Positions 21,793 through 64,000 of a DNA stretch of 64,000 nucleotides are shown here, piece after piece. Position 1 is the stretch's first letter, and the number at the start of each line of letters is the position of its first letter. The notes below the pieces were generated by a model. The model searched no databases and was not told where the DNA came from. It saw only the letters and a list, made by a program, of their open reading frames with translations. A program made the translations under genes and the position numbers. The DNA comes from Streptomyces liliiviolaceus (lineage in GTDB: Bacteria > Actinomycetota > Actinomycetes > Streptomycetales > Streptomycetaceae). Where the stretch lies: assembly GCF_018070025.1 (NCBI RefSeq), contig NZ_JAGPYQ010000002.1, forward strand, positions 434,001 to 498,000, in the 5' to 3' direction.

Positions 21793-21830
21793 CGCTCACT
21801 TCTCTCGGTTTCGCGGGGATCGGTCGACGT

Positions 21831-21970
21831 CTACAGAGCCCTCAGTCCGTCGACGACCTCGCGCAGGATGCGCTCGTCGGGCAGGTGTGCGGGCGGACGA
21901 GCGGTCCGGCCTCGCTGTCGTACCACTGGCTGCCCGGTTGCTCGGGGACGGCTGCCCGTTCCTCGGTCAT
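21831..21970 (-). pseudogene. cvnC: relic of the conservon DUF742 gene (cvnC), internally deleted and frameshifted
   Basis: In the exact slot of cvnC, an ATG at 21968-21970 opens a frame reading MTEERAAVPEQPG then SQWYDSEAGPLVRP, the standard DUF742 N-terminus, and hits a stop at 21842. In the next frame the sequence reads LPDERILREVVDGLRAL and stops at 21831-21833: this is the standard DUF742 C-terminus. The central ~60-80 codons (winged-helix core) are missing and the ends are out of frame. The intact DUF742 gene at 51984 has 128 codons and ends in ELLSAVLDGLRTKFGA. A deletion not divisible by three is the simplest explanation. Confidence 0.75.
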
Positions 21971-21986
21971 GGCCTCCGGCCCCCGC

Positions 21987-22424: not shown

Positions 22425-25093
22425 GCGAGGTCTCCTTCGCTGCTGTCTCTGCCCCCTGCGGGGCCGGACGTGGTGCGGAGACCGGGGGAACGGCCGCCGC
22501 CGCGGGCCCACCCGGCGCGGTAGGCCGTCATCCGGTCCCGTACCGCTTCGGGGGTGCGCTCGGCGTCGTCCCGGTGACGTGCCGGGTTCGCGGGCTCTTC
22601 GGCGCGTCCTTCACGCAGTTGCGGGGCGAGGCTGGCCTGACGTACGCGCCGCGGGAGTCCGTCGGGCACGTCGGACGGCGCGTCGTCGTCGGAGGAACGG
22701 TGCAGGCGCAGAGTGATCACCTCGGGCGGGGGTCCGGCGTGCGAGCCGTCCGCCGACGCCTCCGCCGGGGCGGCTACGGGCGAGACGAGTGCGGGTCGTT
22801 CGATGTGGGCCTCCACCGACTCCTGTCGGATGTGGGCTTCCACTGACTCCTGTCGTGGGGCGGGGCCCACGGATTTCCGCCGAGACAGGGGGCCGGGCAC
22901 GCGCGCGTACTCGCGTCCGGCGGTCCGTCCGGGGGCTCGATCGACGGGCTGTTCCGCCGGCCGTCCGGCAGTTCGTCCGGGAGGCCGTCCCACAGGCTCC
23001 TCGGCCCTCACGCGACGCGTACCGGAACGTTCCTCCGTGCTCGTGTGCAACAGCGCGACGGGCAGGAGGATCACCGCGGTGGTACCTCCGTAGGGCGAGG
23101 TCCGCAGGTGCACCTTGATGCCCTGGCGGGCGGCGAGCCTGCTCACCACGAAGAGGCCGAGCCGGTCGCTGTCGAACAGGTCGAGTGCCTGGGACTGCCC
23201 GATGCGGCGATTGGTCTCGGCGAGGGTCTCCTTGCCCATGCCCAGCCCCCGGTCCTCGACCTCCAAGGCGTATCCGTTGCCGACCGGTTCGCCGGTGACC
23301 CGCACTCCGGTGTGGGGCGGGGAGAACTGGGCGGCGTTCTCGACGATCTCGGCCAGCAGATGCGTGAGGTCGGCGATCGCCGCTCCGACGACCAGGGTCT
23401 CCGAAAGCTGTCGTACCTCCACGCGCGCGTAGTCCTCGATTTCGGAGACGGCTGCGCGCACCACGTTCGTCAGGGGGACCGGCATGCGCCACGCCCGGCC
23501 GGGGGCCGCTCCCGAGAGGATGATCAGGCTCTCCGCGTGGCGTCGCATCCGTGTGGTGAGGTGGTCGAGCCGGAAGAGGTCGCTCAGTTCTTTCGGGTCC
23601 TCGGAGCGCCGCTCCATGCTGTCCAGCAGCCTGAGTTGGCGGTGGACGAGAACCTGGCTGCGGCGGGCGAGATTGACGAAGACGCCGGAGATGCCGCCGG
23701 CCAGTTCCGCGCGTTCGACGGCCGCGTGCAGGGCTGCGCGGTGCACGGTGGTCAGTGCTTCCGCGACCTGCCCCGCCTCGTCCTCGGCGGGCCGCCCCGG
23801 CGGGGCCTCTGCACGGACGTCGATCTCCTCTCCGGCCCGCAGTCTCCGCATGGCGTTCGGCAGTTTGCGCCGGGCGATCTCCAGGGCGCTGTTGCGCAGG
23901 GTCACCAGTTCGACGACGAGGCCGCGTCCGATGCGTACGGAGATGATCAATGAGGCGGCCATGGCCGCGAGCCCCAGGAGGACCGCGGCGCCCGCGGGCG
24001 AGAGCAGACCGCGGCGGAGGGGGTCGGCCCGGTCCGCGACGTCGCGGCCGGCGTCCGCCTCGATGGACCGCATGTCGTCCTGCACGCGCGCGTGGGCGGC
24101 GTTCCAGGTCTCCCCGGGCAGGGCTTGGAGGGCCGTCGCGCCGGGCGGGGCGGTGAGCACCCCGTCCTCGACGGCCGTCATGTCGGCGTACGCGGCACCC
24201 TCCGTGAGGGCCTGCCAGGCGGCTCGTTCGGGTTCGCGGAGATCGACGGCAGCGGAGTCGGTGAGCAGCCTGCGCGTGTCGACGGCGCCGGTGAACAGTC
24301 GCAGCCGCTGTCCGTCGAGGGTCCCTTCGAGGCGGGCACCGGCGAGTACCGCGTCCTCCTGCGCCAGGGCCTCCCCCGCGCGGGAGAACTCAAGCAGTAC
24401 GCGCGCGTCGGAGCCGATTTCCGCGTCCTGGATGCCGGTGAGCGCTCCGCCCACCCCGAAGGCCGTGGCGATGGTCCCGGTGTACCGCCTGTATGTCTCG
24501 TACCAGCCGGTCGTGCGGTCGAGTAGGGCGGTCCGCGGGGAGTGGAGTTGTTCGGCGCCTGTCACGAAGGTTTCGAGGCGTACGGCCACCGCGGCGGGCA
24601 GTTCCTCGCTGTCGGCGACGGTGCTGCCCTGTCCGAGGCGGAGTTCCGACACGGTCCGGTCGGTGCGCGCCGCCAGCTTCTTGAGGGCGCGCTCCCGGTC
24701 GGCCGAGGGGCGCGTGGCGTAGCGGACGGCTGCCGCGCGCTCGTCCTGGAGCGCGATGACGGTCGCTGCTACCGGGGCGCGCACTTCGGAGTCCACGCGC
24801 TGCAACTGCCGCAGCCGTGCGACGTCCTGGGCCGTGGTGACGGTGGCGTGTGCCCAGAGGGCCAGCAGGGAGACAACCGGGACCATGAGCAGGCAGACGA
24901 CCTTCGCTCGCACGGTACGGGGCCGCGGATTCCAGCTCCTCGCGCGCGTGGGCGCGCCCCTCGGTTCCGTGTCGTCGGTTTCCTCCCGGCCGGAGTCTTC
25001 GTCGGCCGGCGGTCCGGCATGCGCGCGACGGCCCCGTACCTCGGCCGTCGACGGCTGCGCACCGTCTGTCGGGGTCCTTCGGGATGTACGCAT
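22421..25093 (-). CDS. cvnA: conservon membrane sensor kinase-like protein (CvnA type, nitrate-sensing-like ectodomain)
   Basis: 890 residues. A charged N-terminus precedes membrane segment 1 (about residues 62-82), an extracytoplasmic helical region resembling the nitrate/nitrite sensing (NIT) domain, segment 2 (about 352-374), a HAMP-like linker and a GHKL ATPase domain: LLAEIVENAAQFSPPHTG (N box), VEDRGLGMG (G1), SDRLGLFVVSRLAARQG (G2). A candidate phospho-acceptor His lies in FRLDHLTTRMRRHAESL. The ~190-residue tail is disordered, Pro/Arg-rich and contains a repeated RQESVEAHI. It should pass an outside signal to the roadblock-GTPase pair encoded downstream. Confidence 0.9.
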   Translation of the reverse strand: MRTSRRTPTDGAQPSTAEVRGRRAHAGPPADEDSGREETDDTEPRGAPTRARSWNPRPRTVRAKVVCLLMVPVVSLLALWAHATVTTAQDVARLRQLQRVDSEVRAPVAATVIALQDERAAAVRYATRPSADRERALKKLAARTDRTVSELRLGQGSTVADSEELPAAVAVRLETFVTGAEQLHSPRTALLDRTTGWYETYRRYTGTIATAFGVGGALTGIQDAEIGSDARVLLEFSRAGEALAQEDAVLAGARLEGTLDGQRLRLFTGAVDTRRLLTDSAAVDLREPERAAWQALTEGAAYADMTAVEDGVLTAPPGATALQALPGETWNAAHARVQDDMRSIEADAGRDVADRADPLRRGLLSPAGAAVLLGLAAMAASLIISVRIGRGLVVELVTLRNSALEIARRKLPNAMRRLRAGEEIDVRAEAPPGRPAEDEAGQVAEALTTVHRAALHAAVERAELAGGISGVFVNLARRSQVLVHRQLRLLDSMERRSEDPKELSDLFRLDHLTTRMRRHAESLIILSGAAPGRAWRMPVPLTNVVRAAVSEIEDYARVEVRQLSETLVVGAAIADLTHLLAEIVENAAQFSPPHTGVRVTGEPVGNGYALEVEDRGLGMGKETLAETNRRIGQSQALDLFDSDRLGLFVVSRLAARQGIKVHLRTSPYGGTTAVILLPVALLHTSTEERSGTRRVRAEEPVGRPPGRTAGRPAEQPVDRAPGRTAGREYARVPGPLSRRKSVGPAPRQESVEAHIRQESVEAHIERPALVSPVAAPAEASADGSHAGPPPEVITLRLHRSSDDDAPSDVPDGLPRRVRQASLAPQLREGRAEEPANPARHRDDAERTPEAVRDRMTAYRAGWARGGGRSPGLRTTSGPAGGRDSSEGDLA

Positions 25094-49961: not shown

Positions 49962-51149
49962 ATGAATCGAGACGTGCTCATATGGTGCCTCGGTGCTGTG
50001 GCGGTGATAGCCGCCGCCGCAGTCCTAGCACTCGTCGTCCGCAACAGAGCTCTGGGAGCAAGAAAACGACAGTTCGAGCGTGAGTCGGCGCACCGGCTGG
50101 CCGAGGCCCAGAGCAGGCTCTCGACCGCTCTGAGCGACTTGCAGAAGTTCCGTGCCGAGCAGGACGGCGCGCTGCGGGACGCCGAACGGACGGCGGAGGA
50201 GAGCACCAAGGCGGTCCTCAAGGGCGCGGTGCGCTTCCTGCAGAGCCTCGCGGCCGAGCAGACCACGCTCCTGGACGGCATCCAGCGCAAGCACGGCGGA
50301 CACGCGGTGCTGTCCGACCTGCTGGACGTCAACCACGCCACCGCCCAGATGGCCCGCAAGGCCCAGGGCATCGCGGTCATGTGCGGCGCGCCGCTCAGCC
50401 GCCGCAGCCAGCCCGCCAGTGTCTACGACGTGGTGCGCAACGCCCAGGGGCAGATCCGTAACTTCAACCGCGTCGAGATCATGCAGCAGAGCGGGATGGC
50501 GCTGAAGGCGTCCGCGGTCTCGCCGGTCGCCCTCGCCGTCGCCGAGCTGCTCGACAACGCCGCCAGCTTCTCGCAGCACGACGCACCCATCGAGGTCACG
50601 TTCCAGCGCGTGCAGAAGAACCTGTGCATCGTGATCGACGACGCCGGTGTCGGTATGAACGACGAGGACCGGCAGAAGGCGACCGTGCTGCTGTCCGGCG
50701 CCACCGCCCCCCGCCTGTCCCAGCTCGGTGCCCAGCCGAAGTTCGGTCTCCCTGTCGTCGGCCTGATCGCGAGCCAGTACGGGTTCAAGGTGGACGTCAC
50801 CGGAGTCTCCCGGTACGGCGGCGTCCGGGCCGTCGTCCTGCTGCCTGAGGAGCTGTGGACCATGGAAGAGACCCCGCAGGCCCCCGCTCAGGAAGCCCCC
50901 GTACGCCGGATCCGGCGCATCCCGACGAGGGAGGACGAACCCGAGAGCCGCACGGTGCACGGTCTGCCGAAGCGGGGCGAGCGTCAGTCCCCCACGGCGA
51001 GCGTGACCGATGGCGGGAGTTCCACCGGCGGGGCCACCCGCCCGTTCAAGAAGGCCCGGGGTGCCGGTGGCCTGGCCGCCATCCAGCGGGGCACCATGTC
51101 GGGCCGTGCCGCCGAGACCCCGTCGTCCGAAGGGACCGAGGACGCATGA
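49962..51149 (+). CDS. cvnA: conservon membrane kinase-like protein (CvnA type, short form)
   Basis: 395 residues from ATG 49962 with GGAAAGG upstream. One N-terminal membrane helix (DVLIWCLGAVAVIAAAAVLALVV), a coiled-coil region to about residue 100, then a GHKL ATPase: LAVAELLDNAASFSQHDAPIEV (N box), IDDAGVGMND (G1), FGLPVVGLIASQYG (G2), and a basic tail. A possible phospho-acceptor His lies in DVNHATAQMARKAQ. There is no large sensor domain, unlike the 890-residue kinase at 22421-25093. First gene of a seven-gene coupled operon; this layout with P450s matches the rar/cvn9-type conservon. Confidence 0.92.
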   Translation: MNRDVLIWCLGAVAVIAAAAVLALVVRNRALGARKRQFERESAHRLAEAQSRLSTALSDLQKFRAEQDGALRDAERTAEESTKAVLKGAVRFLQSLAAEQTTLLDGIQRKHGGHAVLSDLLDVNHATAQMARKAQGIAVMCGAPLSRRSQPASVYDVVRNAQGQIRNFNRVEIMQQSGMALKASAVSPVALAVAELLDNAASFSQHDAPIEVTFQRVQKNLCIVIDDAGVGMNDEDRQKATVLLSGATAPRLSQLGAQPKFGLPVVGLIASQYGFKVDVTGVSRYGGVRAVVLLPEELWTMEETPQAPAQEAPVRRIRRIPTREDEPESRTVHGLPKRGERQSPTASVTDGGSSTGGATRPFKKARGAGGLAAIQRGTMSGRAAETPSSEGTEDA

Positions 51150-51991
51150 CCACAGACATGTCGTGGATGGTCAAGGACATCGTGGACAACGTCCCCGGTG
51201 CCCGGCACGCCGTCGTGCTGTCCGCGGACGGCCTGCCCCGCGGGGCCACGGACGCTCTCACCGACAAGGACGTGAAGACGATCTCGGCCGCCATGTCCGG
51301 GATGCAGTCGCTGAGCCGGGCCACCGCGCACTTCGTCGGTGCGGCGCAGGAACAGCAGTGGAACCAGACGGTCATCGAGTTCTCGCACGGCTGGGTGTTC
51401 CTCATCGGGGCGGGCCAGGGCGCCTATCTGGCCGCCGCCGCGGAGCCCGACGTCGACCTCCAGCAGCTGTCGTTCCGGATGAACCGGCTGGTCGCCAGGC
51501 TGGGCAACAACCTGACGTCACCGCCGCGGGCCGGTCTCGACGACCCCTCCCGGACGAGCGACGCCGCGCGGCTCCCGCACGCCGGGGCCGGCGGTTCGAA
51601 CTTCGTGCTCAAGGAGCTCGACCAGGTCGTCGCCGAGGTGGCCGGCGCCCGGCACGCGCTGCTGCTCGGCGCCGACGGGCTGCCGCGCGGGGCGACCTCG
51701 GCGATCGGCAAGGATCTCGCGGACACGATGTCCGCGGCCATGACCGGCATTCACGCCTACAGCCGTGCGGCGGCGGATTTCGCGGGCGGTTCCCCGGACG
51801 CCGAATGGCAGCAGACGGTCATCGAGTACCAGCACGGCTGGATCTTCCTCATCGCGGCCGGGGACGACGGCTTCCTGGCCGCCGCCGCCGAACACGACTG
51901 TGACATCGAGAAGTTCACGACGCGGCTGTGCGACGCCGTGCCCGGGATCCTGGCGCCTGAGAGCAGGGGAGAGAGGGCCGACCATGTCTGA
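51146..51991 (+). CDS. cvnB: double-roadblock conservon protein (CvnB fused tandem)
   Basis: 281 residues, overlapping the kinase stop by 4 nt (ATGA). Two complete roadblock/LC7 domains follow each other: residues ~4-115 (DIVDNVPGARHAVVLSADGLPRGATDAL, WNQTVIEFSHGWVFLIGAG) and ~150-265 (DQVVAEVAGARHALLLGADGLPRGATSAI, WQQTVIEYQHGWIFLIAAG), joined by a ~35-residue Pro/Ala/Gly linker. Usual CvnB proteins have one domain of ~140 residues, like the two at 20138 and 21987. The fusion can form an internal roadblock dimer, giving a fixed platform for the CvnD GTPase. Confidence 0.92.
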   Translation: MTTDMSWMVKDIVDNVPGARHAVVLSADGLPRGATDALTDKDVKTISAAMSGMQSLSRATAHFVGAAQEQQWNQTVIEFSHGWVFLIGAGQGAYLAAAAEPDVDLQQLSFRMNRLVARLGNNLTSPPRAGLDDPSRTSDAARLPHAGAGGSNFVLKELDQVVAEVAGARHALLLGADGLPRGATSAIGKDLADTMSAAMTGIHAYSRAAADFAGGSPDAEWQQTVIEYQHGWIFLIAAGDDGFLAAAAEHDCDIEKFTTRLCDAVPGILAPESRGERADHV

Positions 51992-52370
51992 CGGATCGGA
52001 CGAGGAGCTGGAGCTCACCTCCCCATTAGTCCCTCTCTTCGTGATCACGAACGGGCGTGGGCTCCCCTCGGACCACGAGTACGAGCACACCGCGTTGGTG
52101 ACCGCGCACGACAGCGGCTCGTCCGCGGCCGCGCGTGCCCTGTCCCCCGAGGCACGCAAGGTCATGAATCTGGTCGCCGACGGATTCCTGTCGGTGGCGG
52201 AGGTCTCGGGCCACACCCACCTGCCCCTGGGCATCGTGCGGATCCTGCTGGCGCAGCTGGAGGAGGACGGCCTCATTCTCGTACGCAAGCCCATTCCCCG
52301 GGTCGAACGCGCCGAACGCGAACTCCTCAGCGCCGTGCTGGATGGCCTCAGAACCAAATTCGGAGCGTAA
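51984..52370 (+). CDS. cvnC: conservon DUF742 protein (CvnC), contains a TTA codon
   Basis: 128 residues from ATG 51984, overlapping the roadblock stop by 8 nt. DUF742 features: SPLVPLFVITNGRG at the start, a winged-helix-like core (SVAEVSGHTHLPLGIVRILLAQLEEDGLILVRK) and ELLSAVLDGLRTKFGA at the end. It links kinase/roadblock and GTPase parts of the conservon. Codon 15 is TTA (52026-52028), so translation should need the bldA tRNA; as the coupled genes follow, the whole operon output could depend on it. Confidence 0.92.
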   Translation: MSDGSDEELELTSPLVPLFVITNGRGLPSDHEYEHTALVTAHDSGSSAAARALSPEARKVMNLVADGFLSVAEVSGHTHLPLGIVRILLAQLEEDGLILVRKPIPRVERAERELLSAVLDGLRTKFGA

Positions 52371-52373
52371 GCC

Positions 52374-52934
52374 GTGTATCTGAATCCAGAGACTTCCAAC
52401 TCGGTCAAGATCCTCGTCGTGGGTCATTTCGGGGTCGGGAAGACCACCCTGATCAACAGCATCTCCGAGATCGAACCGCTGCAGACCGAGGAGGAGATCA
52501 CCGAGGCCAGCGAGGGCTTCGACGATCTGTCGGGGACACCGAACAAGACGACCACCACCGTGGCCATGGACTTCGGCCGTCTCACCCTCAGCGACACCCT
52601 CGTGCTCTACCTCTTCGGAACCCCCGGGCAGGAACGCTTCAAGGAGATGTGGGAAGCACTGTCACGGGGCGCGCTGGGCGCCCTCGTCCTGGTCGACCCC
52701 ACTCGACTGCACGACAGCTTCCCCATCCTGGACCTGGTCGAGCGCTTCGGCCTGACGTACACCATCGGCGTCAACCACTTCGAGGGCACCACCGAGTACC
52801 CGCTCGACGAAGTCCGCGAGGCGCTCAACCTCGCCGAGGACACCCCGATCGTGCACTGCGACGTGCGTGACCGCACGTCCTCGGCGCAGTCCCTCATCAC
52901 CCTCGTGCAGCACCTCATGTCCATACTCGGCTAG
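52374..52934 (+). CDS. cvnD: conservon GTPase (CvnD)
   Basis: 186 residues from GTG 52374, four bases after the DUF742 stop. P-loop VVGHFGVGKTTL near residue 15, NKTTTTVAMDFG switch I, LFGTPGQERF switch II. The usual NKxD is VNHFE, as in other CvnD proteins. It is a Ras/MglA-like switch recruited by the roadblock platform. Here it is followed by two cytochrome P450 genes, so the signal may be tied to an oxidised small molecule. Confidence 0.93.
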   Translation: MYLNPETSNSVKILVVGHFGVGKTTLINSISEIEPLQTEEEITEASEGFDDLSGTPNKTTTTVAMDFGRLTLSDTLVLYLFGTPGQERFKEMWEALSRGALGALVLVDPTRLHDSFPILDLVERFGLTYTIGVNHFEGTTEYPLDEVREALNLAEDTPIVHCDVRDRTSSAQSLITLVQHLMSILG

Positions 52935-52942
52935 GAGCCGGC

Positions 52943-54316
52943 ATGCAACACCAGATCAACTCCCACCCGACACCGCCGCCCGGGTGCCCCGCGCACGGCA
53001 ACACCCAGCTGTTCGGCCCGGAGTTCGGCTCCGACCCCGAGCGCCACTACGAGAACCTGCGCTCGCTCGGCCCCAGCGCCCCCGTCGACATCGCCCCCGA
53101 CGTCGAGGTCGAACTGGTCACCAGCTACGACGCGGCCCTGTACATCCTGCAGAACCCCGCCTCCTTCGTCCGCGACTCACGCCGCTGGAACGCGCTGAAC
53201 GAGGGCCGGGTCCCCGCGGACAGCCCCGCCCTGCCCATGATGGGCTACCGGCCCAACGCCCTCTTCAGCGACGGTGCCGCCCATGCCCGGCTCCGCCAGG
53301 CCGTCACCGACAGCCTCGCCAGCATCGACGAGCTCCAGCTCGTGCGGCAGACCCAGCAGTCCGCCGACTACCTGATCAGCCAGTTCTCCTCGGACGTGCG
53401 CGGCCAGGCGGATCTGATGGCCGACTACGCCCAGCCGCTGCCGCTGCTCGTCTTCAGCGACCTGTTCGGCTGCCCGCCCGAGATCGGCGACCGCGTCATC
53501 GCGGGCATCAGCGGCATCTTCGAGGGGACCCCCGGCGCCGACCAGGTCCTGGGCGGCGCGCTCGGCGAACTGATCGCCCTCAAGCACCGCCGGCCCGGCA
53601 ACGACGTGACGACGCGGCTCATGCAGCACGCCGCGGGCCTCAGCGACGAGGAGGTGCTGCACCAGCTCGTGACCCTGCTCTCCGGCGGCACCGCGCCTCT
53701 GGCCGCGGCCATCGGCACGAGCAGCGCGCTGTACCTCGGAGAGGACTGGCCGGCCGGCCTCCCGGTCGAGGACGCGGTCGTCCAGACCCTGTGGAACTAC
53801 GCGCCGATCGCCAACTACGCGGCCCACTACCCGACCCACGACGTCGACCTGGGCGGCCGGGTGCTGCGCGCCAACGACCCGGTGGTCATCTCCTTCGCCG
53901 CGGCCAACACCGACCCGAAGCTGACCGAGCACCGCGAGCAGCTCAGCGGCAAGGCCCACCTCGCCTTCGGCGCCGGACCGCACGCGTGCCCCGCCAAGGA
54001 CCCGGCGTTCATGATCGCCGTCACCGCCGTCGAGTCGCTCCTCAACCGGCTGCCCGACGTCGAGACGCGCGTCCGCTTCCAGGATCTCGCCTGGGTGCCC
54101 GCGCCCTGGAGCCGGTCCCTGGTCAGCGTCCCGATCCGGTTCACCCCGCGCAGCGTGACCCAGACCGCCGCGGAGTCCTCCCGGCCCCAGGACGCCTCGC
54201 CGTCGCACGCGGCGCAGTACCCCACCGCCTCGTACCAGCAGTCGGCGGCGCCCTCCGCATCCAAGGCCAAGTCCGGCCTTTTCAGTCGGTTCCTGGCATG
54301 GACCAGGGGCGAGTGA
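52943..54316 (+). CDS. cytochrome P450, CYP157-like, without the ExxR motif
   Basis: 457 residues from ATG 52943, eight nt after the GTPase stop with GGAG upstream. Heme-binding loop is intact (LAFGAGPHACPAKDP). The K-helix, however, reads VEDAVVQTLWNYAP where P450s have ExxR: Glu and Arg are replaced by Gln and Trp. The I-helix (LLSGGTAPLAAAIG) also lacks the usual AGxET/T. This agrees with the CYP157 family, known for lacking ExxR and for sitting in conservons. The C-terminal ~60 residues are Ala/Ser/Gln-rich and extra. Catalysis cannot be assumed; a structural or heme-sensing role is possible. Confidence 0.9.
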   Translation: MQHQINSHPTPPPGCPAHGNTQLFGPEFGSDPERHYENLRSLGPSAPVDIAPDVEVELVTSYDAALYILQNPASFVRDSRRWNALNEGRVPADSPALPMMGYRPNALFSDGAAHARLRQAVTDSLASIDELQLVRQTQQSADYLISQFSSDVRGQADLMADYAQPLPLLVFSDLFGCPPEIGDRVIAGISGIFEGTPGADQVLGGALGELIALKHRRPGNDVTTRLMQHAAGLSDEEVLHQLVTLLSGGTAPLAAAIGTSSALYLGEDWPAGLPVEDAVVQTLWNYAPIANYAAHYPTHDVDLGGRVLRANDPVVISFAAANTDPKLTEHREQLSGKAHLAFGAGPHACPAKDPAFMIAVTAVESLLNRLPDVETRVRFQDLAWVPAPWSRSLVSVPIRFTPRSVTQTAAESSRPQDASPSHAAQYPTASYQQSAAPSASKAKSGLFSRFLAWTRGE

Positions 54317-54409
54317 CGTAAGTAACCCTATGAGGACACAGTGTTATTGGATGCTTCAATAACCTCACGGGTACGTATGGCGGCTGTTGCTCAGAAAGGA
54401 GCCGCCACC

Positions 54410-55666
54410 GTGGGCAGCCTCACGACGTCGTCGTCCGACCGCCGCGCCACCGTCTCCCTCTTCTCCCGTCTGCGGACGGCGGAAGGACAGGCTGATCCCT
54501 TCCCCCTCTACACGGAACTACGGTCCAAGGGCGGAGTCCGCCCCGCACCCTGGGGCGGCTTCCTCGTCACCAGCTTCGACGCCTGCGACCGCGTACTGCG
54601 CAGCGCCGAGTGGCTGGAGCCGGACAAGGGCTGGCGCGACCGGCAGGGCCCCCGCACCCGCTGGAGTGCTCCGTCATCGCGCGAGATAGGCAGCACGATG
54701 CCCGCTCTCAACCCACCGGAGCACACCAGGGTGCGCAGGGCGGCGGGCGGATTCGACCGGACGGCCATCCAACAGATGAGCCGCACTGTCCTCCGGCTCA
54801 CCGACGGTCTCCTCGACACCCTGGCCGAACGCCTCAGGGACGGCGAGGAGCACGCGGACTTCGCCGCCCTGGTCAGCGAGGAACTGCCGATCGCCACCAT
54901 CGGCGCCTGGCTCGCCCTGCCGTCGGCCGACTGGCCACGGCTGCGCGAACTGACCCATGAACAGGTCTTCACCCAGGAACTGCTGCCCTCCGGCAGCCAG
55001 TTGGCCCGGTCCGACGTCGCGATGGCCGAACTGCGCTCCTACTTCATGGAGCTCATACGCGACCGGCGCCGGCACCCCGGCGACGACCCCGTCTCGCGCT
55101 GGATCACCACCTGGGACGCCATGGAGTCCGACCCCGACAAGGCCGACGAGGCGGTCTACTTCCTCGTCCTGTTCGTCCTGCTGGCCGCTCTGGAGACCAC
55201 CTCGACCCTGTTGTCCACCATGACGCTCCACCTCGTCGAGGACCCCGCACGCTGGGACCTGCTGACCGCCCGCCCCGACCTGGTACCCGCCTTCGTGGAG
55301 GAGACACTGCGCTACGACCCGCCGGCTCACGTGATCAGCCGGGTCGCCGCACGGGACGGCCTGCTGGACGGCGTCGAGGTCCGGGCCGACGACATGGTCC
55401 ACCTCATGGTGGGCGCCGCCCACCGCGACCCGGCGAAGCACCCCGATCCCGACCGGTTCGACCCGCACCGCAAGGCCTTCCACAACCTCGCCTTCAGCGG
55501 AGGCATCCACTACTGCCTCGGCGCCCCGCTGGCCCGACTCGAAGCCCACACCCTCCTGCGCCAACTGGTCGGACGCCTGCCCCGCCTCACCCTGGCCCGA
55601 CGCCCGCTCAGGGCACCCAGAGTGGCCTTCAGGCGTCTGCTGAACCTGGACGTCGCCCTCGCATGA
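54410..55666 (+). CDS. cytochrome P450 (canonical), second of the pair
   Basis: 418 residues from GTG 54410, chosen because AAAGGAG lies about eight bases upstream; in-frame ATGs at 54341 and 54377 are less likely. ExxR is present (VEETLRYDPPAHVISRVA) and the heme loop is normal (LAFSGGIHYCLGAPLARLEA). The I-helix reads FVLLAALETTSTLL. A soluble bacterial P450 needing ferredoxin and reductase. It follows the ExxR-less P450 and overlaps the enoyl-CoA hydratase start as ATGA. The substrate is unknown. Confidence 0.9.
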   Translation: MGSLTTSSSDRRATVSLFSRLRTAEGQADPFPLYTELRSKGGVRPAPWGGFLVTSFDACDRVLRSAEWLEPDKGWRDRQGPRTRWSAPSSREIGSTMPALNPPEHTRVRRAAGGFDRTAIQQMSRTVLRLTDGLLDTLAERLRDGEEHADFAALVSEELPIATIGAWLALPSADWPRLRELTHEQVFTQELLPSGSQLARSDVAMAELRSYFMELIRDRRRHPGDDPVSRWITTWDAMESDPDKADEAVYFLVLFVLLAALETTSTLLSTMTLHLVEDPARWDLLTARPDLVPAFVEETLRYDPPAHVISRVAARDGLLDGVEVRADDMVHLMVGAAHRDPAKHPDPDRFDPHRKAFHNLAFSGGIHYCLGAPLARLEAHTLLRQLVGRLPRLTLARRPLRAPRVAFRRLLNLDVALA

Positions 55667-56421
55667 ACCACATACTCCCGCCCCCCGCCGTCCGCCCCTC
55701 CGCCATCGACACCGAGCAGGACGGTCCCGTCCTGCGCGTCCGCCTCAATCCCGACGGGCAGGACGACGTCCTGAGCGCCGCCGCGATCGACGACCTCATC
55801 GCCCTGCTGGACTCTCTGCACGGACGGCCCGACGTCCGTGTCCTGGTCCTGTCCTCCCTCGGACCGGACTTCTGCACCGGAGCGGACCGCGGCGAGTACC
55901 TGGACGCGGTCACCGCCGACCCGTCCGGCGCCGCCCTGCGACGGGCCGTGGACAAGGCCCACCGCCTCTGTCACGCCCTGGAGAACACCCACGCCGTCAC
56001 CATCGCCCGGCTCCACGGCAAGGTCGTCGGCGCCGGACTCGCCCTGGCCGCGTTCTGCGATCTGCGGGCGGGCTCGGACACCTGCCGATTCCGCATGCCC
56101 GAAGTCGCACTGGGCCTCCCACCCGCCTGGGGAGGCGCCCTGGGCCGGCTGATATCCGAGGTCGGCGTCGCACCGATCCGCGAACTGGCGCTCACCTGCG
56201 AGGTCTTCGACGCGTCCACCGCCCACCGGATCGGCCTGCTCCACAAAGTGGTTCCCCACGACCAACTGGACCGCACCGTCGACGCGTGGACGAGACCGCT
56301 CGCCCGACGCTCGCCCGAGACCCTCGTCCTGACCAAGCGCATGCTCGCCGGCTACGCACGGACCGGCACGGCCAACGTCTCCCTCCTCGACTCCCACCTT
56401 CTGTCCAGCACACTCAAGTAG
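55663..56421 (+). CDS. enoyl-CoA hydratase/isomerase family protein
   Basis: 252 residues, overlapping the P450 stop by 4 nt. Crotonase fold: VLRVRLNPDGQDDVLSAAAIDDLI, VLVLSSLGPDFCTGADRGEYL (oxyanion loop), ARLHGKVVGAGLALAAFCDLRAGSDTCRFRMPEVALGLPP. The catalytic Glu pair of hydratases is not obvious (PEVALG gives one Glu), so the exact reaction is open. Coupling to the P450 suggests a joint small-molecule pathway attached to the conservon. The operon ends at the hairpin after it. Confidence 0.85.
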   Translation: MNHILPPPAVRPSAIDTEQDGPVLRVRLNPDGQDDVLSAAAIDDLIALLDSLHGRPDVRVLVLSSLGPDFCTGADRGEYLDAVTADPSGAALRRAVDKAHRLCHALENTHAVTIARLHGKVVGAGLALAAFCDLRAGSDTCRFRMPEVALGLPPAWGGALGRLISEVGVAPIRELALTCEVFDASTAHRIGLLHKVVPHDQLDRTVDAWTRPLARRSPETLVLTKRMLAGYARTGTANVSLLDSHLLSSTLK

Positions 56422-57862: not shown

Positions 57863-58963
57863 CTACTCGGCGTTCGGGGTCGCGGTCGTGGGTGAGTGGC
57901 TCCGGCCGCCGGTGACCGCCGTGGCCAGCGCGAAGACCAGGTCCAGTGCACCGGGACGACCGTCGGCCCCCTCTTGCGGGGGCAGGTGGAGGCCGCCCGC
58001 GTGGGTGCCGAGCGTCCGGTGCAGTGCGACGAAGGCGCCGGCCTCGGCGAGCACGCCCGCCGGGTCCCGGCGGTTGCGGTGCCAGGGGTCGCAGGCCCAG
58101 ACGACGTCGGCCTCGGTGGAGGCGACCTTCTGCACCAGTTCCGGCAGGACATCGGTGACGCGGTCCGCCCCGAACCGGGTGAGGAAGGTGAGCCGTCCCG
58201 CGGAGCGCTCGGGGTCGAGCCGGTCGATCAGGGCGAGGACAGCGTCGTGGGTGGTCTCGGCCTCCACCACCACACCGACGGGGTTGCTGATCCGCGCCAC
58301 GGCACCGGCCGACACGTGGTCGGCCCCGGCCGAGGAGTGGTGCAGCCAGACCATGTGGCCGACGGGGTCCCACCGGTCGCCGCCGGGGACGTCGGCCGGG
58401 GGCGGGGCGGAGTCGCCCGCGAGAGCGGTACGGCTGACGGCGGGCCGCGGCAGCACCGCCGGCCTGCCTCCGCAGGCGTGCAGGAAGCTCAGCGCGGAGC
58501 CGATCCCACCGGTCAGCGGCTCGTAACGGGCGCGCTCCGGGGAGTTCGCGACGAACGCCCGGTTCAGTTCGTGCGCCCACGACACCTCCGGGCGGACCTC
58601 GCTGCCGAACGCCCGCACCAGGTTGAGGGTCATGGCCGACGCCCGGTGGACGTCCGGGAGCCGGGCGGGCCCGGTGCGGCCCTCGGCCGGTGGTGCGTGG
58701 ATCTCGGCGACGGGCACGACCGGGACGCCGAGCGCGTACGACAGGACGACCGTTCCCTGTGCCAGCACGGTCAGTTGCCGGGCGATGTGCTCGGCGCGGG
58801 GCACCGCTCCCGGCGGGGTGCCGCTGCCCGCGTGGAGCAGGAAGGCCTCGCCCCGGGCGGCGGCGGCCAGCTTCCCGCACAGTTCCTCGGCCTCTCCCGG
58901 CCATATCAGGGGCGGGTGTGCGGCGTCGGGCTCGGTCCCGGTCCCTGTCTCGGTGTGGTTCAC
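57863..58963 (-). CDS. class II DAHP synthase-like protein with lost active-site residues
   Basis: 366 residues from GTG 58963, overlapping the previous gene by 4 nt. The fold is clear: NLVRAF, ISNPVGVVVEAETTHDAVLALIDRLDP then GRLTFLTRFGAD, LPELVQKVASTEADVVWACDPWHRN and LGTHAGGLHLPP follow the class II DAHP synthase order. But the key residues are changed. The metal Cys loop (AGDCAE) is AGSGTP, GERTR is LHHSSAG, GVKLGP is GVVVEA, the metal Glu (HLELTGE) is HLPPQEG, and CDPRLN is absent. Only the metal His (CDPWH) and an Arg remain. Normal DAHP synthesis is unlikely; it may do a new reaction or serve as scaffold. Confidence 0.8.
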   Translation of the reverse strand: MNHTETGTGTEPDAAHPPLIWPGEAEELCGKLAAAARGEAFLLHAGSGTPPGAVPRAEHIARQLTVLAQGTVVLSYALGVPVVPVAEIHAPPAEGRTGPARLPDVHRASAMTLNLVRAFGSEVRPEVSWAHELNRAFVANSPERARYEPLTGGIGSALSFLHACGGRPAVLPRPAVSRTALAGDSAPPPADVPGGDRWDPVGHMVWLHHSSAGADHVSAGAVARISNPVGVVVEAETTHDAVLALIDRLDPERSAGRLTFLTRFGADRVTDVLPELVQKVASTEADVVWACDPWHRNRRDPAGVLAEAGAFVALHRTLGTHAGGLHLPPQEGADGRPGALDLVFALATAVTGGRSHSPTTATPNAE

Positions 58964-60084
58964 AGCAGCGAGAGCTTGCCCCCGCTCAGCCACGAGTCCA
59001 GCGGCTCCCGCATGGTGGGCTCCGACGGAGGGTGGAAGGCCAGGGCTCGACTGGCGGCCAGCAGGTCCACTCCGTGGCCGTCGCGCACGAAGGACATGCC
59101 GCCCATCAGCTCCAGGACCCGGTCGGTGGCCTCCGCGATCGCCCGCTGGGCGGTGTACCGGATCAGCAGGATCCGGCCCATGAGCGCTTCCTCCGGTGAG
59201 CCGTCGTCCAGCTCGCGGGCGACGGCCTCGACGGCGGCCGACACCGTCTCCAGCGGGCCGAAGGCCGTCACCCGGTCGCCCGCCTGTCCTCGTCCGTCCG
59301 CGAAGAGCCGCTCCACCTGGCCGGTGGCGATGCCCACGTACGCGGCGGTGATCAGGATCAGGAAGCGTGCCATGAGCGAGTTCAGCCGGCCGGCCGCCTG
59401 CTCCGGGTCGCCCAGCGGGACGATCATGTGGTCCGGGACGAACACGTCGTCCAGCACCACGGCGTCGGTCTGCGCGGCCCGCAGAGCGTGGTTTCCCCAG
59501 AAGGGCTCCCGGCGCAGTCCGGGCGTCTCGGCGGGCACCATCACGATCAGCAGGTCGCCCGCGTACGGTGAATCCGGCGGCCCGGGTGCCAGCAGGGTCA
59601 ACAGGCCCATCGATCCGACCAGGGAACAGGGCCGCTTGGAGCCGGTGAGCCGCAGACCGCCGCCGTTCGCCGCGGCGACCCTGATGCCGGGTGCGAAGAG
59701 CTGTTTGCCGGAAGCGCCTTCTGCTCCACAGGAGGAGACGAGCAGCCGTCGGCCGACGATCTGCGAGAGCACGTCGGCCGCGCCGTCGCCCAGCACGTGG
59801 GCCAGCCACGCCACCTTGTAGTGGTGCATGGTCGACGCCACGGCCAGTGAGGGGGCCCGGCTGCCCACCGCCCGCTGCAGACGTGCCCCTTCCAGGCAGC
59901 TCAGGCCGCCGCCACCCCGGGCGACGGGGATGAGGACGTTGCCACCGCCGGCTTCGCGGAACTCCTCGATGACGTGGGTGTCGGGGTCCTCCACGGCCGC
60001 CGTGCCGAGTTCGGCCAGCCGGTCGTCGAATCCGGGCAGCGCCTTGTCGAGGACGGCCCGTTCGGTGGTGAGTATGTTCAGCAT
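58960..60084 (-). CDS. acyl-CoA dehydrogenase-fold flavoprotein (possible flavin-dependent monooxygenase)
   Basis: 374 residues from ATG 60084. N-terminal helical domain, a central beta part (SSCGAEGASGKQLFAPGIRVAA, VVLDDVFVPDHMIVP) and a C-terminal helical part (RAIAEATDRVLELMGGMSFVRDGHGVDLLAASRALAF) fit the acyl-CoA dehydrogenase superfamily. The usual catalytic Glu is not evident. Some relatives (e.g. VlmH type) are two-component N-hydroxylases that take reduced flavin from a partner; the flavin reductase two genes upstream makes this attractive but unproved. 4-nt overlap with the DAHP-synthase-like gene. Confidence 0.8.
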   Translation of the reverse strand: MLNILTTERAVLDKALPGFDDRLAELGTAAVEDPDTHVIEEFREAGGGNVLIPVARGGGGLSCLEGARLQRAVGSRAPSLAVASTMHHYKVAWLAHVLGDGAADVLSQIVGRRLLVSSCGAEGASGKQLFAPGIRVAAANGGGLRLTGSKRPCSLVGSMGLLTLLAPGPPDSPYAGDLLIVMVPAETPGLRREPFWGNHALRAAQTDAVVLDDVFVPDHMIVPLGDPEQAAGRLNSLMARFLILITAAYVGIATGQVERLFADGRGQAGDRVTAFGPLETVSAAVEAVARELDDGSPEEALMGRILLIRYTAQRAIAEATDRVLELMGGMSFVRDGHGVDLLAASRALAFHPPSEPTMREPLDSWLSGGKLSLL

Positions 60085-60099
60085 GGGTGACTCTCCTCG

Positions 60100-60645
60100 T
60101 CACAGTGCGTACGAGAACCGGACGCGGTCCTCCCCCGGGCCGTCCCAGTCCTTCCAGACGGGCAGGCTCTCCGTGCCCGTCACCTTCGCCGTGCCCGTCA
60201 CGTTCTCCGTGTCCGGCGGGCCCGCCGACGGCAGGGGAATCGCCTCGAACCCCGTCGCGAGATGGAAGCGCTGGGACCGGGTGTTGCCGGGTGACACGAC
60301 AGCGGTGACGGTCCGGCACCCCTGTCCGCCGGCCAGCTCGAAGAACCGTCTGTAGAGCACCCTGCCGAGGCCGGACCTGCGGTGGCCGGGGGCGACCGCG
60401 ATGAAGTGGGTGTGCGCCTCCCCCGGTTCGGAGGGCGAGACGATGCCGACCAGGAACCCGGCGAGCACCCCCTGGTCGGTCACGGCCGCCAGGCTCGTCG
60501 CGTGGAAGTGGCGCAGGAACAGCCGGGGCAGCATGTGGGCCGCCGGGCGGCCCCACCACTCGTCCACCTGGGCGATCAGCGAGGGATAGTCCGACTCCTG
60601 GAGTGCGCGGATGCGCGGGAGTGCACGGATGCGCGGTGCGGTCAT
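60100..60645 (-). CDS. GNAT-family N-acetyltransferase
   Basis: 181 residues from ATG 60645. The GNAT core has TSLAAVTDQGVLAGFLVG, THFIAVAPGHRRSGLGRVLYRRFFE (acetyl-CoA loop RRSGLGR) and VTAVVSPGNTRSQRFHLATGFEAI. The first residues contain a short repeat (PRIRAL twice). The substrate is probably an amine intermediate of the cluster, but this is inferred. It lies 15 nt before the acyl-CoA dehydrogenase-like gene and 49 nt after the flavin reductase. Confidence 0.88.
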   Translation of the reverse strand: MTAPRIRALPRIRALQESDYPSLIAQVDEWWGRPAAHMLPRLFLRHFHATSLAAVTDQGVLAGFLVGIVSPSEPGEAHTHFIAVAPGHRRSGLGRVLYRRFFELAGGQGCRTVTAVVSPGNTRSQRFHLATGFEAIPLPSAGPPDTENVTGTAKVTGTESLPVWKDWDGPGEDRVRFSYAL

Positions 60646-60694
60646 CTTCGGGTCCTGCTCCTTTCCCGGATCACTTCTCGGGTCACTGACCGGA

Positions 60695-61246
60695 TCACTG
60701 TTCCTCGGCTCGGGGCGGTCGGGCGGCGGGACGGGCCGGAGCGGGACTCAACTCACCGTCCACGAAGAGCAGTTGAGGTACCTTCTCGCGGGCGCCGCAC
60801 TCCTGCACCAGGCCGACCACCAGCATGTGGTCGCCGAGTTCGATGAACCGCACGGCCCGGCAGTCGAAGTGGCCGACGGCCCCGGCGATGCGTACACCGC
60901 CGGTCACCGGCTCGTCCTCGGTACGCACCTCGGCGAAGCTCTCCGCGCCCAGCGGGCGGTTCCGGTTGGCGAACCACCGGGCCAGCTCGGCCTGTTCGGC
61001 GGCGAGGACGTTGACGACGAAGCCGCCGGTCCGCTCCACCAGCCCTCTGATCCTGGCGTCGTGCCGCACGCTGAAGGACACCAGCGGGGGTTCGAGCGAC
61101 AGGGTCGTGAAGGAGTTGACCGTCATCCCGTGCACGTGGGGACCGAGCCCGCTGGTCACCACGGTCACCCCGGTGGGAAGGCAGCGGGCCGTGGTGCGCA
61201 GGAGCGAGGCGGTCACCGGCTCCGCGGCCGTGGCGTGGATGGTCAA
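60695..61246 (-). CDS. flavin reductase (FMN/FAD, HpaC/VlmR-like)
   Basis: 183 residues from ATG 61246, overlapping the KAS III-like stop as ATGA. Flavin-reductase-like fold: LPTGVTVVTSGLGPHVHGMTVNSFTTLSLEPPLVSFSV, GGFVVNVLAAEQAELARWFA and VGHFDCRAVRFIELGDHMLVVGLV. It makes free reduced flavin from NAD(P)H. Likely partners in the same operon are the luciferase-like monooxygenase and the acyl-CoA dehydrogenase-fold protein. Pro/Ala-rich tail. Confidence 0.92.
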   Translation of the reverse strand: MTIHATAAEPVTASLLRTTARCLPTGVTVVTSGLGPHVHGMTVNSFTTLSLEPPLVSFSVRHDARIRGLVERTGGFVVNVLAAEQAELARWFANRNRPLGAESFAEVRTEDEPVTGGVRIAGAVGHFDCRAVRFIELGDHMLVVGLVQECGAREKVPQLLFVDGELSPAPARPAARPPRAEEQ

Positions 61247-62205
61247 CGGATCTCTCCCTCCGCCGGGAGCACGTCGGCGCCGAGCAGCACCGCGGCCAGA
61301 TGGGACATGCCGGCGCCGAGCAGGACGTACTCCTCCGGGGTGCCCGGGCCGGTGGCGGGTTCCGGTGCGCCGAGCCGATCGGCGAGATGGATCAGCGGGT
61401 CGCTGCCCTGACAGTGGGCGATGCGACCCACGCTGTCCATCGCGATCCGCCGGCTGTCGAACCCGACGTCGGCGAGGTACATCTCCATCACGTTGCGCGC
61501 GAAGTTGCTGGGCAGGACGAGCGAGACGTCCGGCCGGACGCGGTGCCGGTCCGACAGGCCGGTGAACAGCTCCCGGTAGGCGGTCAGGCGGGCGGTCAGC
61601 CGCTGGTGCGGCGGCGCGTCCCGGCGCTCCTCGGCCGCGCCGTGGTGGGCCATGGCCAGGATCGGCAGGCCCGGTTCGCCGGCGGAGACCAGGGCGGCGG
61701 CCGCCCCGTCGCTGGCGATGGCCGCGCCACCGGCCACCAGGCGCTCCCCGCCGGTCGACAAGTCGGCCAGGTCACCGCTGATGACCATGACGTGCCGTGC
61801 GGTGCCGTCCCGGACCAGTGAGGCCGCGTTGCCCAGCGCGAACATCGCCGTGGCACAGTCCATCAGGCCGAGCGTGGCGACGGTGGCACCGGTCATGCCG
61901 GTCTCCTGGAGCAGGTCGGCGACCTCGCGGTGGGCGCGGCGATCGGGCGGGAGAGAGTCCGTGGCGAGCAGGACCGTGTCCACGGCCTTGCCCGGGACGC
62001 CCGCTCCGGCCAGGCACTTCTGCGCGGCCGCGGCCATCAGCTCCACCAGCGGGGCCTGCGACCAGCGGTAGACGGAGAACCCGGCCGCCGGGGAGGTCAG
62101 TTCGGCCGCCACGTCCGGTGCGGCACCCAGTTCCGGGAGTTCGGTCACGGGAGCCTCGTACTCGCCCAGTTCGTAGGCGGCGGCGCACAGCCGCGGCGTG
62201 ATCAC
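61243..62205 (-). CDS. KAS III-like (FabH-fold) acyl-transferase or ketosynthase
   Basis: 320 residues from GTG 62205, overlapping the condensation gene stop (GTGA). A thiolase fold with nucleophile Cys in GLMDCATAMFALGNAASLV and the second half VSLVLPSNFARNVMEMYLADVGFDSRRIAMDSVGRIAHCQGSDPLIHLADRLG. FabH has His-Gln-Ala-Asn and GNTS motifs; here they are SNFAR and AHCQGSDP, so the Cys-His-Asn triad is changed, with a His in the last motif. Such variants include O- or N-acyltransferases (CerJ-like), so acyl transfer is as likely as C-C bond formation. Confidence 0.85.
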   Translation of the reverse strand: MITPRLCAAAYELGEYEAPVTELPELGAAPDVAAELTSPAAGFSVYRWSQAPLVELMAAAAQKCLAGAGVPGKAVDTVLLATDSLPPDRRAHREVADLLQETGMTGATVATLGLMDCATAMFALGNAASLVRDGTARHVMVISGDLADLSTGGERLVAGGAAIASDGAAAALVSAGEPGLPILAMAHHGAAEERRDAPPHQRLTARLTAYRELFTGLSDRHRVRPDVSLVLPSNFARNVMEMYLADVGFDSRRIAMDSVGRIAHCQGSDPLIHLADRLGAPEPATGPGTPEEYVLLGAGMSHLAAVLLGADVLPAEGEIR

Positions 62206-63593
62206 TGTCCGGCCTCTCGCGACGCGTGCCCTGACCCGGAACCTGACGCGGGCCCCGCCGTACCGGACGCCTGCGCGGCCAGCGCCGTGAACCGTTCGGC
62301 CAGGTGGTCCACCGTGCTTCTGTCGTACAGCCCGGTGTCGTACTCGATCCAGCCGGAGGCGCCTTCGGGGGCGGGATGGACCGCGAGTGTCAGGCCGTAG
62401 CGGGCCACGCCCTTGTCCACGTCCGACGTGGACACGACGGCACCCTGCACCCTGCGAGGACCCTCGGCCGGGCTGTCGAACACGAACGCCACGTCGAACA
62501 GCGGGTGCAGGCCGGGGAGTCGGCGTTCGGTGGCGATCAGCTCCGCCGGGTACGCCGCATGCCGCAGCCCCCGTTTCGACGCCGTGTGGGCCGCCCTGAT
62601 CCGCGCCCCCCAGGTGCCGTCGCCGGGGTCGCGCAGCCGCAGCGGCAGTACGTTGAGCAGGTAGCCGACGGTCTGCTGTGCGTCCGGCCGGTCCCGGTTG
62701 GCGGTGAAGGTGCCGAGCAGCACGTCCGGCCGGCCACTGAACTCGGCGAGCGTGGCCCACGCGACGGCCGCCCAGCCGGCGTAGGCGGTGGCGGCCGAGC
62801 CCCTGGCCGCTTCGGCGATGCCCTGGGCCACGGCGGCGGGCAGGGTGAACTCCACGCGTCCACCCGTGCCGGGGGCGGCCTGCCCCCGGGGGCGGTCGGT
62901 GGCGAGCGGAGGCGGGGCGTCCGCCAGTTCGTCCGCCCAGAAGCGGGCCGCCGCCCGGCCCTGTGGTCCGGCCGTCGACTCGGCCTGCTCCAGGGCGAAA
63001 CGGCCGAAGGGGCGCGTCGCGGGAGCGGGCACGGCGGGGTCGCGGGCGAGTTCGTCGAGCAGCAGCTCGAAGGACCAGGCGTCAAACACCAGGTTGTGTA
63101 CGACGACGAGCAGCCAGGCCTCCTCGCCGGAGGCTCCCTCGGCCAGGGCCACCCGCAGGAGCGGCCCTTCGGCCAGGTCGAACGGCTCGTGCGCCAACTC
63201 GCGGGCCAGGGCGTGCGCCTGCTCCGGGCCGCCGGGGCAACGGGTGCGGACCAGCCGGGGAGGCAGGTCCTCGTGCACCACCGGCCGCACGGCCCCGAGG
63301 TGTTCCTCGAACGTGGTGCGCAGCGCCTCGTGGGCGCGGACGAAGCCCTGGACGCGTTCGGCCAGCAGGTCGAGGTCGACCGGGGCTCCGGTCAAGCGCA
63401 CGGCCTGGCAGACCACGTCCACGGGCCGCCCGGCGGCGGTGTGATGGGCGCGCCACAGCCGCTCCTGGCCCGGGGTCGGCCGCGCCTGGGTGCGCGGGGC
63501 CTGTTCGCGTAACCGGGCTCGGAGCCGGTCCAGTTGGTCGGGGGTGAGCGCGGCGAGCCGTGCGGCCAGCTCCGCGGGGACACCGGCGGTCAT
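62202..63593 (-). CDS. free-standing NRPS condensation-domain protein with altered HHxxxDG, contains a TTA codon
   Basis: 463 residues from ATG 63593. Condensation fold: TPGQERLWRAHH, FVRAHEALRTTFEE, LLRVALAEG, then the motif region VVHNLVFDAWSFELLLDEL, GTFTANRDRPDAQQTVGYLLNVLPLRLR and LFDVAFVFDSP. In place of HHxxxDG stands HNLVFDA, so the second (catalytic) His is Asn and the Gly is Ala. No adenylation or carrier domain is attached. It may catalyse non-standard acyl transfer or only bind. Codon 28 is TTA (63510-63512), suggesting bldA control. Confidence 0.88.
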   Translation of the reverse strand: MTAGVPAELAARLAALTPDQLDRLRARLREQAPRTQARPTPGQERLWRAHHTAAGRPVDVVCQAVRLTGAPVDLDLLAERVQGFVRAHEALRTTFEEHLGAVRPVVHEDLPPRLVRTRCPGGPEQAHALARELAHEPFDLAEGPLLRVALAEGASGEEAWLLVVVHNLVFDAWSFELLLDELARDPAVPAPATRPFGRFALEQAESTAGPQGRAAARFWADELADAPPPLATDRPRGQAAPGTGGRVEFTLPAAVAQGIAEAARGSAATAYAGWAAVAWATLAEFSGRPDVLLGTFTANRDRPDAQQTVGYLLNVLPLRLRDPGDGTWGARIRAAHTASKRGLRHAAYPAELIATERRLPGLHPLFDVAFVFDSPAEGPRRVQGAVVSTSDVDKGVARYGLTLAVHPAPEGASGWIEYDTGLYDRSTVDHLAERFTALAAQASGTAGPASGSGSGHASREAGQ

Positions 63594-64000
63594 GCGTAGC
63601 GCCTCCGTAGTTCGTTGAGGTGACTCAGGCTCTCGACGACGAGTTGTTCGTCCACGCCGAAGTCGATGAGGCAGGCGATCTCCTTGACGCCCATGCCTTT
63701 GAAGCGGTCGACCACCGCGGTGCAGGAGTCGGGGGTGCCCAGCAGCGCGCCCTTCTCGAAGTACTTGTCGAAGGCGAACCCGATGAGCTGGTCCTGGTCG
63801 GCCTCGGACATGTCCCGTACCCCTGCTCCCGGCGCGAGGTTCTTCTTCTGCGAGTCGATGACGGTCAGGAAGGAGCGCAGATAGTCCGTGAACGGCGGCC
63901 GGACGGTCTCACGCACCTCCTCCAGGTCGGTGCCGATGAAGGTGTGCAGCATCAGCGTGACGGTGACGTCGTCCGGATCGTGCCCGTAGTCCTGGAGGGT
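63590..64000 (-). CDS. luciferase-like flavin-dependent monooxygenase (MupA/Atu3671 type), C-terminal part
   Basis: The minus-strand frame is open to the window edge; about 136 C-terminal residues are seen (TLQDYGHDPDDVTVTLMLHTFIG, FAFDKYFEKGALLGTPDSCTAVVDRFKGMGVKEIACLIDFGVD). This matches the end of MupA-type luciferase-like monooxygenases common in NRPS clusters, which use reduced FMN. Its stop overlaps the condensation-protein start as ATGA. The N-terminus and further cluster genes lie to the right. Confidence 0.88.
   Translation of the reverse strand, partial: TLQDYGHDPDDVTVTLMLHTFIGTDLEEVRETVRPPFTDYLRSFLTVIDSQKKNLAPGAGVRDMSEADQDQLIGFAFDKYFEKGALLGTPDSCTAVVDRFKGMGVKEIACLIDFGVDEQLVVESLSHLNELRRRYA

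Follow-up and report, generated by a model that had tools for sequence, protein, structure and literature searches.

A nine-gene core that probably makes an amino-acid-derived building block in a Streptomyces hybrid NRPS-PKS cluster

What do the last genes of a 64,000-nt stretch of Streptomyces liliiviolaceus DNA (contig NZ_JAGPYQ010000002.1, positions 434,001 to 498,000; the whole stretch is called the window below) make, and do they form a complete unit? Seven minus-strand genes at window positions 57863-64000 belong to the families that an earlier note on this DNA had named: a luciferase-like monooxygenase (LLM), a stand-alone condensation (C) domain, a protein similar to beta-ketoacyl-acyl carrier protein synthase III (KAS III), a flavin reductase, a GNAT protein, a flavoprotein with the acyl-CoA dehydrogenase fold (dehydrogenase-like protein), and a protein similar to class II 3-deoxy-D-arabino-heptulosonate 7-phosphate synthase (DAHPS-like). 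The note regarded them as a natural-product operon, which is borne out, and the genes co-occur in other genomes. They make up the downstream half of a more extensive cluster, a real and conserved Streptomyces hybrid of a nonribosomal peptide synthetase (NRPS) and a polyketide synthase (PKS). The most interesting part of it is a nine-gene cassette, mostly outside the window, that probably makes an amino-acid-derived building block for natural products. Its presence in clusters with different arms suggests that one building block enters several products, and solving one of them would inform all.

The operon at the window edge and its continuation

The contig of the window is 2.5 Mb long, and the operon, truncated by the window edge, goes on rightward. 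Most of the seven genes had been said to overlap by 4 nt, and this is the case for four of the six junctions; at the other two the genes stand 49 and 15 nt apart. The genes and their divergent neighbour are as follows.

63590-64000, minus strand: LLM, cut by the window edge; core gene 7 of 9; TIGR04020
L009 3591-4622, extending to window position 64621, minus strand: complete form of the LLM, 343 aa
62202-63593, minus strand: stand-alone C domain; core gene 8 of 9; PF00668, 173.7 bits
61243-62205, minus strand: KAS III-like acyltransferase with Cys117-His264-Asp269; core gene 9 of 9
60695-61246, minus strand: flavin reductase; accessory; PF01613, 126.2 bits
60100-60645, minus strand: GNAT acetyltransferase; accessory; PF00583
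58960-60084, minus strand: dehydrogenase-like flavoprotein; accessory; PF02770 below the cut-off
57863-58963, minus strand: class II DAHPS-like protein; accessory, limited to the clade of the window in what was seen; PF01474, 176 bits
56532-57812, plus strand: Gfo/Idh/MocA oxidoreductase, divergent neighbour; probable cluster edge

To the right of the window the same strand continues with genes encoding a PKS of 1618 aa (ketosynthase, acyltransferase, ketoreductase and acyl carrier protein: KS-AT-KR-ACP), an adenylation-peptidyl carrier protein (A-PCP), a medium-chain dehydrogenase/reductase (MDR), an FrhB-type flavoprotein bearing 4Fe-4S motifs, a class III aminotransferase, a protein similar to 5-enolpyruvylshikimate-3-phosphate (EPSP) synthase (EPSPS-like), a second KAS III and a class II aldolase. 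Carrier and adenylation genes, which the note had proposed to seek in this direction, are found there. Further on, the plus strand (locus L010) carries genes for a DUF885 protein, an AMP ligase, an ACP, an ectoine-synthase-like cupin, an acyl-CoA dehydrogenase (ACAD2), a transglutaminase-like protein, a PALP protein dependent on pyridoxal phosphate, ATP-grasp proteins, a B12-binding protein with the methylaspartate mutase epsilon chain, and an MFS-like transporter. In this right arm the ACP, transglutaminase, B12-binding, second ATP-grasp and MFS genes were assigned by similarity to genes of the G071 genome, the names of the ACP and MFS genes being given by eye.

Recurrence of the core with different arms

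The core order EPSPS-aminotransferase-FrhB-MDR-A/PCP-PKS-LLM-C-KAS III is complete and on one strand in all ten regions read across it, those of G000 (the genome of the window), G1049, G071, G038, G050, G339, G640, G047, G016 and G054; the region of G149 stops at a contig edge inside the MDR gene. LLM is the most conserved core protein, with 87-100% identity in the relatives read. The earlier note had treated the seven genes as a unit, and its expectation that they co-occur elsewhere holds for LLM, C and KAS III in 10/10 regions and for the whole window set in S. dioscori and S. tauricus. Three of the seven genes (LLM, C, KAS III) are core, the other six core genes all lying to the right of the window, while the remaining four (flavin reductase, GNAT, dehydrogenase-like, DAHPS-like) are an accessory arm present only in some relatives.

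In S. dioscori and S. tauricus the genes of the window stand in the same order with 82-99% identity. Moreover, the dN/dS ratio, calculated for seven genes (the six complete ones of the operon and Gfo/Idh), lies within 0.14-0.70 for 20 of 21 comparisons, there being no homolog for the 21st. Given this conserved order and these ratios, none of the genes looks as if it were decaying. The Gfo/Idh/MocA gene lies beside the cluster in both species (94% identity in S. dioscori, 92% in S. tauricus), and no homolog was found in the G1049 region read; it is the probable cluster edge.

Among 392 genomes of the genus, FrhB with at least 74% identity is present in ten, the own genome included, and there is one additional match of 31%. 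The regions read are the own one and those of eight of the other nine FrhB genomes (G366 was left out), plus G640 and G1049. Among 394 genomes drawn from the class, FrhB exceeds 70% identity in two, the own one and another member of the genus, ten further matches being weak and partial, with 26-42% identity. In the protein database relatives of FrhB with 65-76% identity come from Peterkaempfera, Streptacidiphilus, Dactylosporangium and Actinoplanes; in the latter three genera homologs of FrhB and KAS III appear to come from shared genomes, which suggests that the cassette extends beyond Streptomyces. The plasmid collection yielded two weak FrhB matches (28%) and, at E 1e-40, no C domain. When the species-genome collection was scanned with six exact KAS III peptide patterns, suited to close relatives only, two loci emerged, those of S. 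dioscori and S. tauricus.

The arms that flank the core differ between regions, and for this reason the cassette looks reused. Both arms are present in G000 and G1049, while G071 combines the right arm, minus KAS III-1, with a flavin reductase. G038, G050, G339, G640, G047 and G016 have a paralogue of KAS III-2 (41-45% identical to it), an MFS-like transporter and a long A-domain protein, which is A-PCP-C by Pfam in G038 and has related proteins in the other five. The gene picks of five of these six regions (not G047) include a small carrier protein, and four of the six encode an FMN-dependent dehydrogenase resembling that of G038, which was checked. Around the core of G054 lie genes for NRPS proteins, for a pair each of FMN_bind_2 proteins and dehydrogenase-like flavoproteins, and for a carbamoyltransferase and an M17 peptidase. 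As for the accessory genes, the flavin reductase is also found in G071 (67%) and G054 (58%), and GNAT relatives in G016 (60%), G047 (51%), and G054 and G149 (36-37%). In the tree of concatenated core proteins G071 groups with G000 and G1049, and G047 with G640, G339, G038 and G050; G016 has the arm of the latter group but falls outside it.

The note knew of no described cluster with this set, and among the titles and abstracts listed by full-text searches of open-access PMC papers none describes it, although a subscription paper could still do so. The solanimycin cluster and the stravidin region were rejected as matches, as luciferase, F420 and shikimate are not mentioned in the available parts of the description of the former, nor EPSP, carboxyvinyltransferase and F420 in those of the latter. 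A gabaculine lead gave nothing related in open-access full texts.

A possible route through the core

We consider it an even chance that the cassette makes one non-standard amino acid, adds one malonate, ketoreduces and alpha-hydroxylates the resulting unit, and hands it on by acyl transfer. The EPSPS-like protein, the FrhB Fe-S flavoprotein, the MDR and the class III aminotransferase would convert a shikimate-like (or other hydroxylated) precursor to the amino acid, to be loaded by the A-PCP protein; the PKS would add one malonyl unit, with subsequent ketoreduction. The LLM would then hydroxylate the alpha carbon of the thioester, with reduced flavin (FMNH2) from the flavin reductase where its gene is present, and the KAS III and/or the altered C domain would move the acyl group to another carrier, an amine or a hydroxyl. 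The left arm (GNAT, the dehydrogenase-like flavoprotein as an oxygenase, DAHPS-like) and the right arm (AMP ligase, ACP, cupin, acyl-CoA dehydrogenase, transglutaminase-like, PALP, ATP-grasp, methylaspartate mutase) would decorate the unit or couple a second building block.

The EPSPS-like protein matches EPSP synthase (AroA) over the full length and retains most catalytic motifs: GDKS, RPM, SAQ, SRDH[TS]ER, DEVP, KETDR and DHR are kept in 12/12 sequences. In contrast to AroA, the phosphoenolpyruvate (PEP) loop GNSGT is replaced by GSSAAAR in all 12, the score is below the cut-off of the aroA equivalog TIGR01356 (243.6 vs 287.25 bits), and the gene resides in a secondary-metabolite operon beside those of the aminotransferase, FrhB and MDR. 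The loop in question is the one changed in glyphosate-insensitive EPSPS variants. A rather unlikely alternative is that the gene is a self-resistance copy of aroA, protecting against a product or intermediate that inhibits EPSP synthase, with the amino acid coming from elsewhere. The retained motifs together with the changed loop agree with it, as do two other AroA proteins above the cut-off in the same genome. Moreover, when 396 genomes of the phylum were searched, just one other protein reached E 1e-60, an AroA-like one (43% identity) whose gene has housekeeping-like neighbours, TyrA-like and Cmk-like (named by eye). The low aroA score, however, speaks against resistance, as does the occurrence of the gene in clusters with differing arms and hence probably differing final products. 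The EPSPS-like gene is always the first of the core, overlapping the aminotransferase gene by 4 nt in the genome of the window and in 5 of 9 relatives (script-picked starts), and because of this constant first position a role in building is favoured over one in protecting.

Long FrhB homologs (P0171, P0175, P0231) have 701-762 aa, and P0231 carries a creatininase domain; P0171 carries the MDR-type domain PF08240, and this fusion supports a joint redox step of FrhB and MDR. Tentatively, one can go further: the EPSPS-derived enzyme with its rebuilt PEP site, the FrhB/MDR pair and the class III aminotransferase might yield an undescribed shikimate-like amino acid, a shared pharmacophore that several different Streptomyces assembly lines load, extend and alpha-hydroxylate, with a former DAHP synthase recruited to a new, non-aldolase role in the clade of the window.

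The pocket of the A domain was taken by alignment, the A4 motif pattern having matched 0/11 sequences. The positions that we take to form the pocket, 235 included, are identical in 11/11 clusters, with Asp at position 235, and the stretch AYGSTECSCALLRV around positions 330 and 331 is likewise identical in all 11, so that one substrate is expected throughout. In the PKS, the KS motifs TACS and KxNxGH, the AT motif HAFH and the Ser/Tyr/Asn pattern of the KR are present in 10/10 proteins, and EAHGTGT in 9/10, with no match in G016. HAFH presumably marks a malonyl-type AT, and the PKS is of the malonyl type with a KR that is apparently active.

LLM is well above the cut-off of TIGR04020, the MupA/Atu3671 subfamily (463.8 vs 244.45 bits), and its nearest solved relative is PuwE (6ket, 353 bits). 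For the PuwE oxygenase, the accessible part of the puwainaphycin study assigns 2-hydroxylation, i.e. at the alpha carbon of the acyl chain, by prediction (PMC4219810). The two share the NCBIfam subfamily, and the LLM, like PuwE, is encoded directly after a PKS module; unlike PuwE, it is a separate protein, the PKS here has no aminotransferase domain, and the KR would give a beta-hydroxyl. Family and nearest relative together point to hydroxylation next to the thioester, at the alpha carbon.

The earlier note had taken two oxygenase-type flavoproteins and one flavin reductase to suggest that the tailoring is oxidative, possibly N-oxidative. To see here two such flavoproteins served by one reductase is a fair reading; N-oxidation seems less likely than alpha-carbon hydroxylation. 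The second flavoprotein of this pair, the dehydrogenase-like one, matches several proteins weakly, including DszC and XiaF and also true dehydrogenases. At the two positions that we take to be those of the catalytic base, Glu is absent from it and from 3/3 aligned relatives, while ACAD2 of the right arm has Glu at the second position in 3/3. DszC/XiaF-type monooxygenases also lack the catalytic Glu, and an oxygenase role is predicted for the protein. If LLM and this protein were both N-oxygenases acting on an acylated amine, the DszC/XiaF resemblance, the missing Glu and the presence of both flavoproteins with a flavin reductase in one operon would be accounted for. We nevertheless regard this as improbable: the LLM, a member of TIGR04020, has a close relative assigned to carbon hydroxylation, and the dehydrogenase-like gene, not found in 7/10 regions read, is not core. 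Outside the clade of the window, its relative (62%) was seen only in G054.

In the KAS III alignment (the window protein and 35 of its 45 matches, the other ten being omitted), Cys117, His264 and Asp269 are present in 36/36 rows. The Cys and His occupy the columns of the FabH Cys and Asn; the Cys-His-Asn triad of FabH is absent, its His being replaced by Ser (35/36) or Asn (1/36) and its Asn by His. The distance between His and Asp (+5) equals that of His296 and Asp301 in ChlB3, and the same His-x4-Asp pattern is seen in 3/3 proteins of the upstream KAS III-1. Since the Cys-His-Asp triad is that of CerJ/ChlB3/AfcL-type acyltransferases, the KAS III, though only 17% identical to ChlB3, is probably alive, and a FabH-type condensing role is disfavoured by its residues. 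According to the portions available of the respective papers, CerJ mutants show that the triad is needed (PMC9573744), and AfcL joins a lysine derivative to an acyl-peptide (PMC12186527). The description of the operon as made mostly of altered enzymes was therefore overstated. Active sites are indeed altered, but in four proteins (C domain, KAS III, dehydrogenase-like, DAHPS-like) and not in three, as had been counted.

Several points weigh against the proposed route. The HHxxxDG motif of the C domain reads HNLVFDA, the form HNxxxDA being found in 10/10 sequences, and the domain may be inactive. The predicted structure of KAS III (pLDDT 90.6) does not discriminate between its possible relatives, as the VIA-align Z scores of its PDB matches ChlB3 (32.2, the best), DpsC (32.1), FabH (31.8) and CerJ (31.3) are tied. 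The flavin reductase was not found in 6/10 regions read, where the LLM must use another reductase. The code of the A domain matches no nameable substrate, and the EPSPS-like gene could be for resistance and not biosynthetic. What was observed is the content, order and recurrence of the genes, the constancy of the A-domain pocket, the AT motif of malonyl type, the triad of KAS III and the residues lost from the DAHPS-like and dehydrogenase-like proteins, while we infer every substrate, the order of the steps and the product.

The DAHPS-like protein and the surroundings of the operon

The DAHPS-like protein scores 189 bits as a class II DAHP synthase, compared to a cut-off of 614.7, and matches best at residues 93-327, some segments of the family being absent. 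It was aligned with 32 of the 120 listed matches, and nine positions were considered, whose numbering and assignment to metal and PEP binding we take to be those of class II enzymes. Neither the query nor any of the 8 close homologs has retained the equivalents of C87, E411, R126, E283, R284 and K306, which comprise two metal ligands and four PEP contacts, whereas the active-site H369 and R337 are kept in 8/8. A further ligand, in the D441 column, varies (Glu in the query; Asp in five, Glu in two and Ala in one of the eight homologs), this part of the alignment being gappy. The canonical role is very unlikely in view of the lost residues. The dN/dS ratio of this gene is 0.34-0.47.

These residues also bear on the idea that the DAHPS-like and EPSPS-like proteins raise the supply of chorismate for an aromatic product. 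Both descend from shikimate-pathway enzymes, and the kept His and Arg, along with the Asp of the gappy fourth-ligand column in five of the eight homologs, would suit it; still, with six active-site residues lost throughout and the DAHPS-like gene present in only 2/10 of the regions read that span the core, and besides these in S. dioscori and S. tauricus, we consider it highly improbable. The cluster provides shikimate-pathway enzymes put to other use, an EPSPS whose PEP loop has changed and a DAHP synthase deprived of much of its active site, and their new roles can be tested.

In Streptomyces sp. NPDC053542 there is a DAHPS-like protein of 337 aa (P0059), 46% identical to that of the window, which has likewise lost the metal Cys and has kept the metal Glu; altered enzymes of this kind may form a second lineage there. 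In the genome of the window, a third gene of the class II DAHPS-like type is located at G000:C1:5200149-5201273 (L071, L072), with two matched parts in one frame of 521 aa. Short DNA matches to the C-domain gene of the window are found in the same region (C1 5.22-5.37 Mb), which is perhaps another secondary-metabolite cluster.

To the left of the Gfo/Idh/MocA gene, window positions 50139-56421 hold a conservon-like set (histidine-kinase-like, Roadblock/LC7, DUF742 and small GTPase-like proteins), followed by two cytochromes P450 and an enoyl-CoA hydratase. The latter three genes (52943-56421) were excluded from the cluster, as the loci of S. dioscori and S. tauricus (L011, L012) lack any homolog of them. 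A similar set of kinase, roadblock and GTPase-like genes, recognized by eye from translations, occupies positions 20138-24913 on the minus strand.

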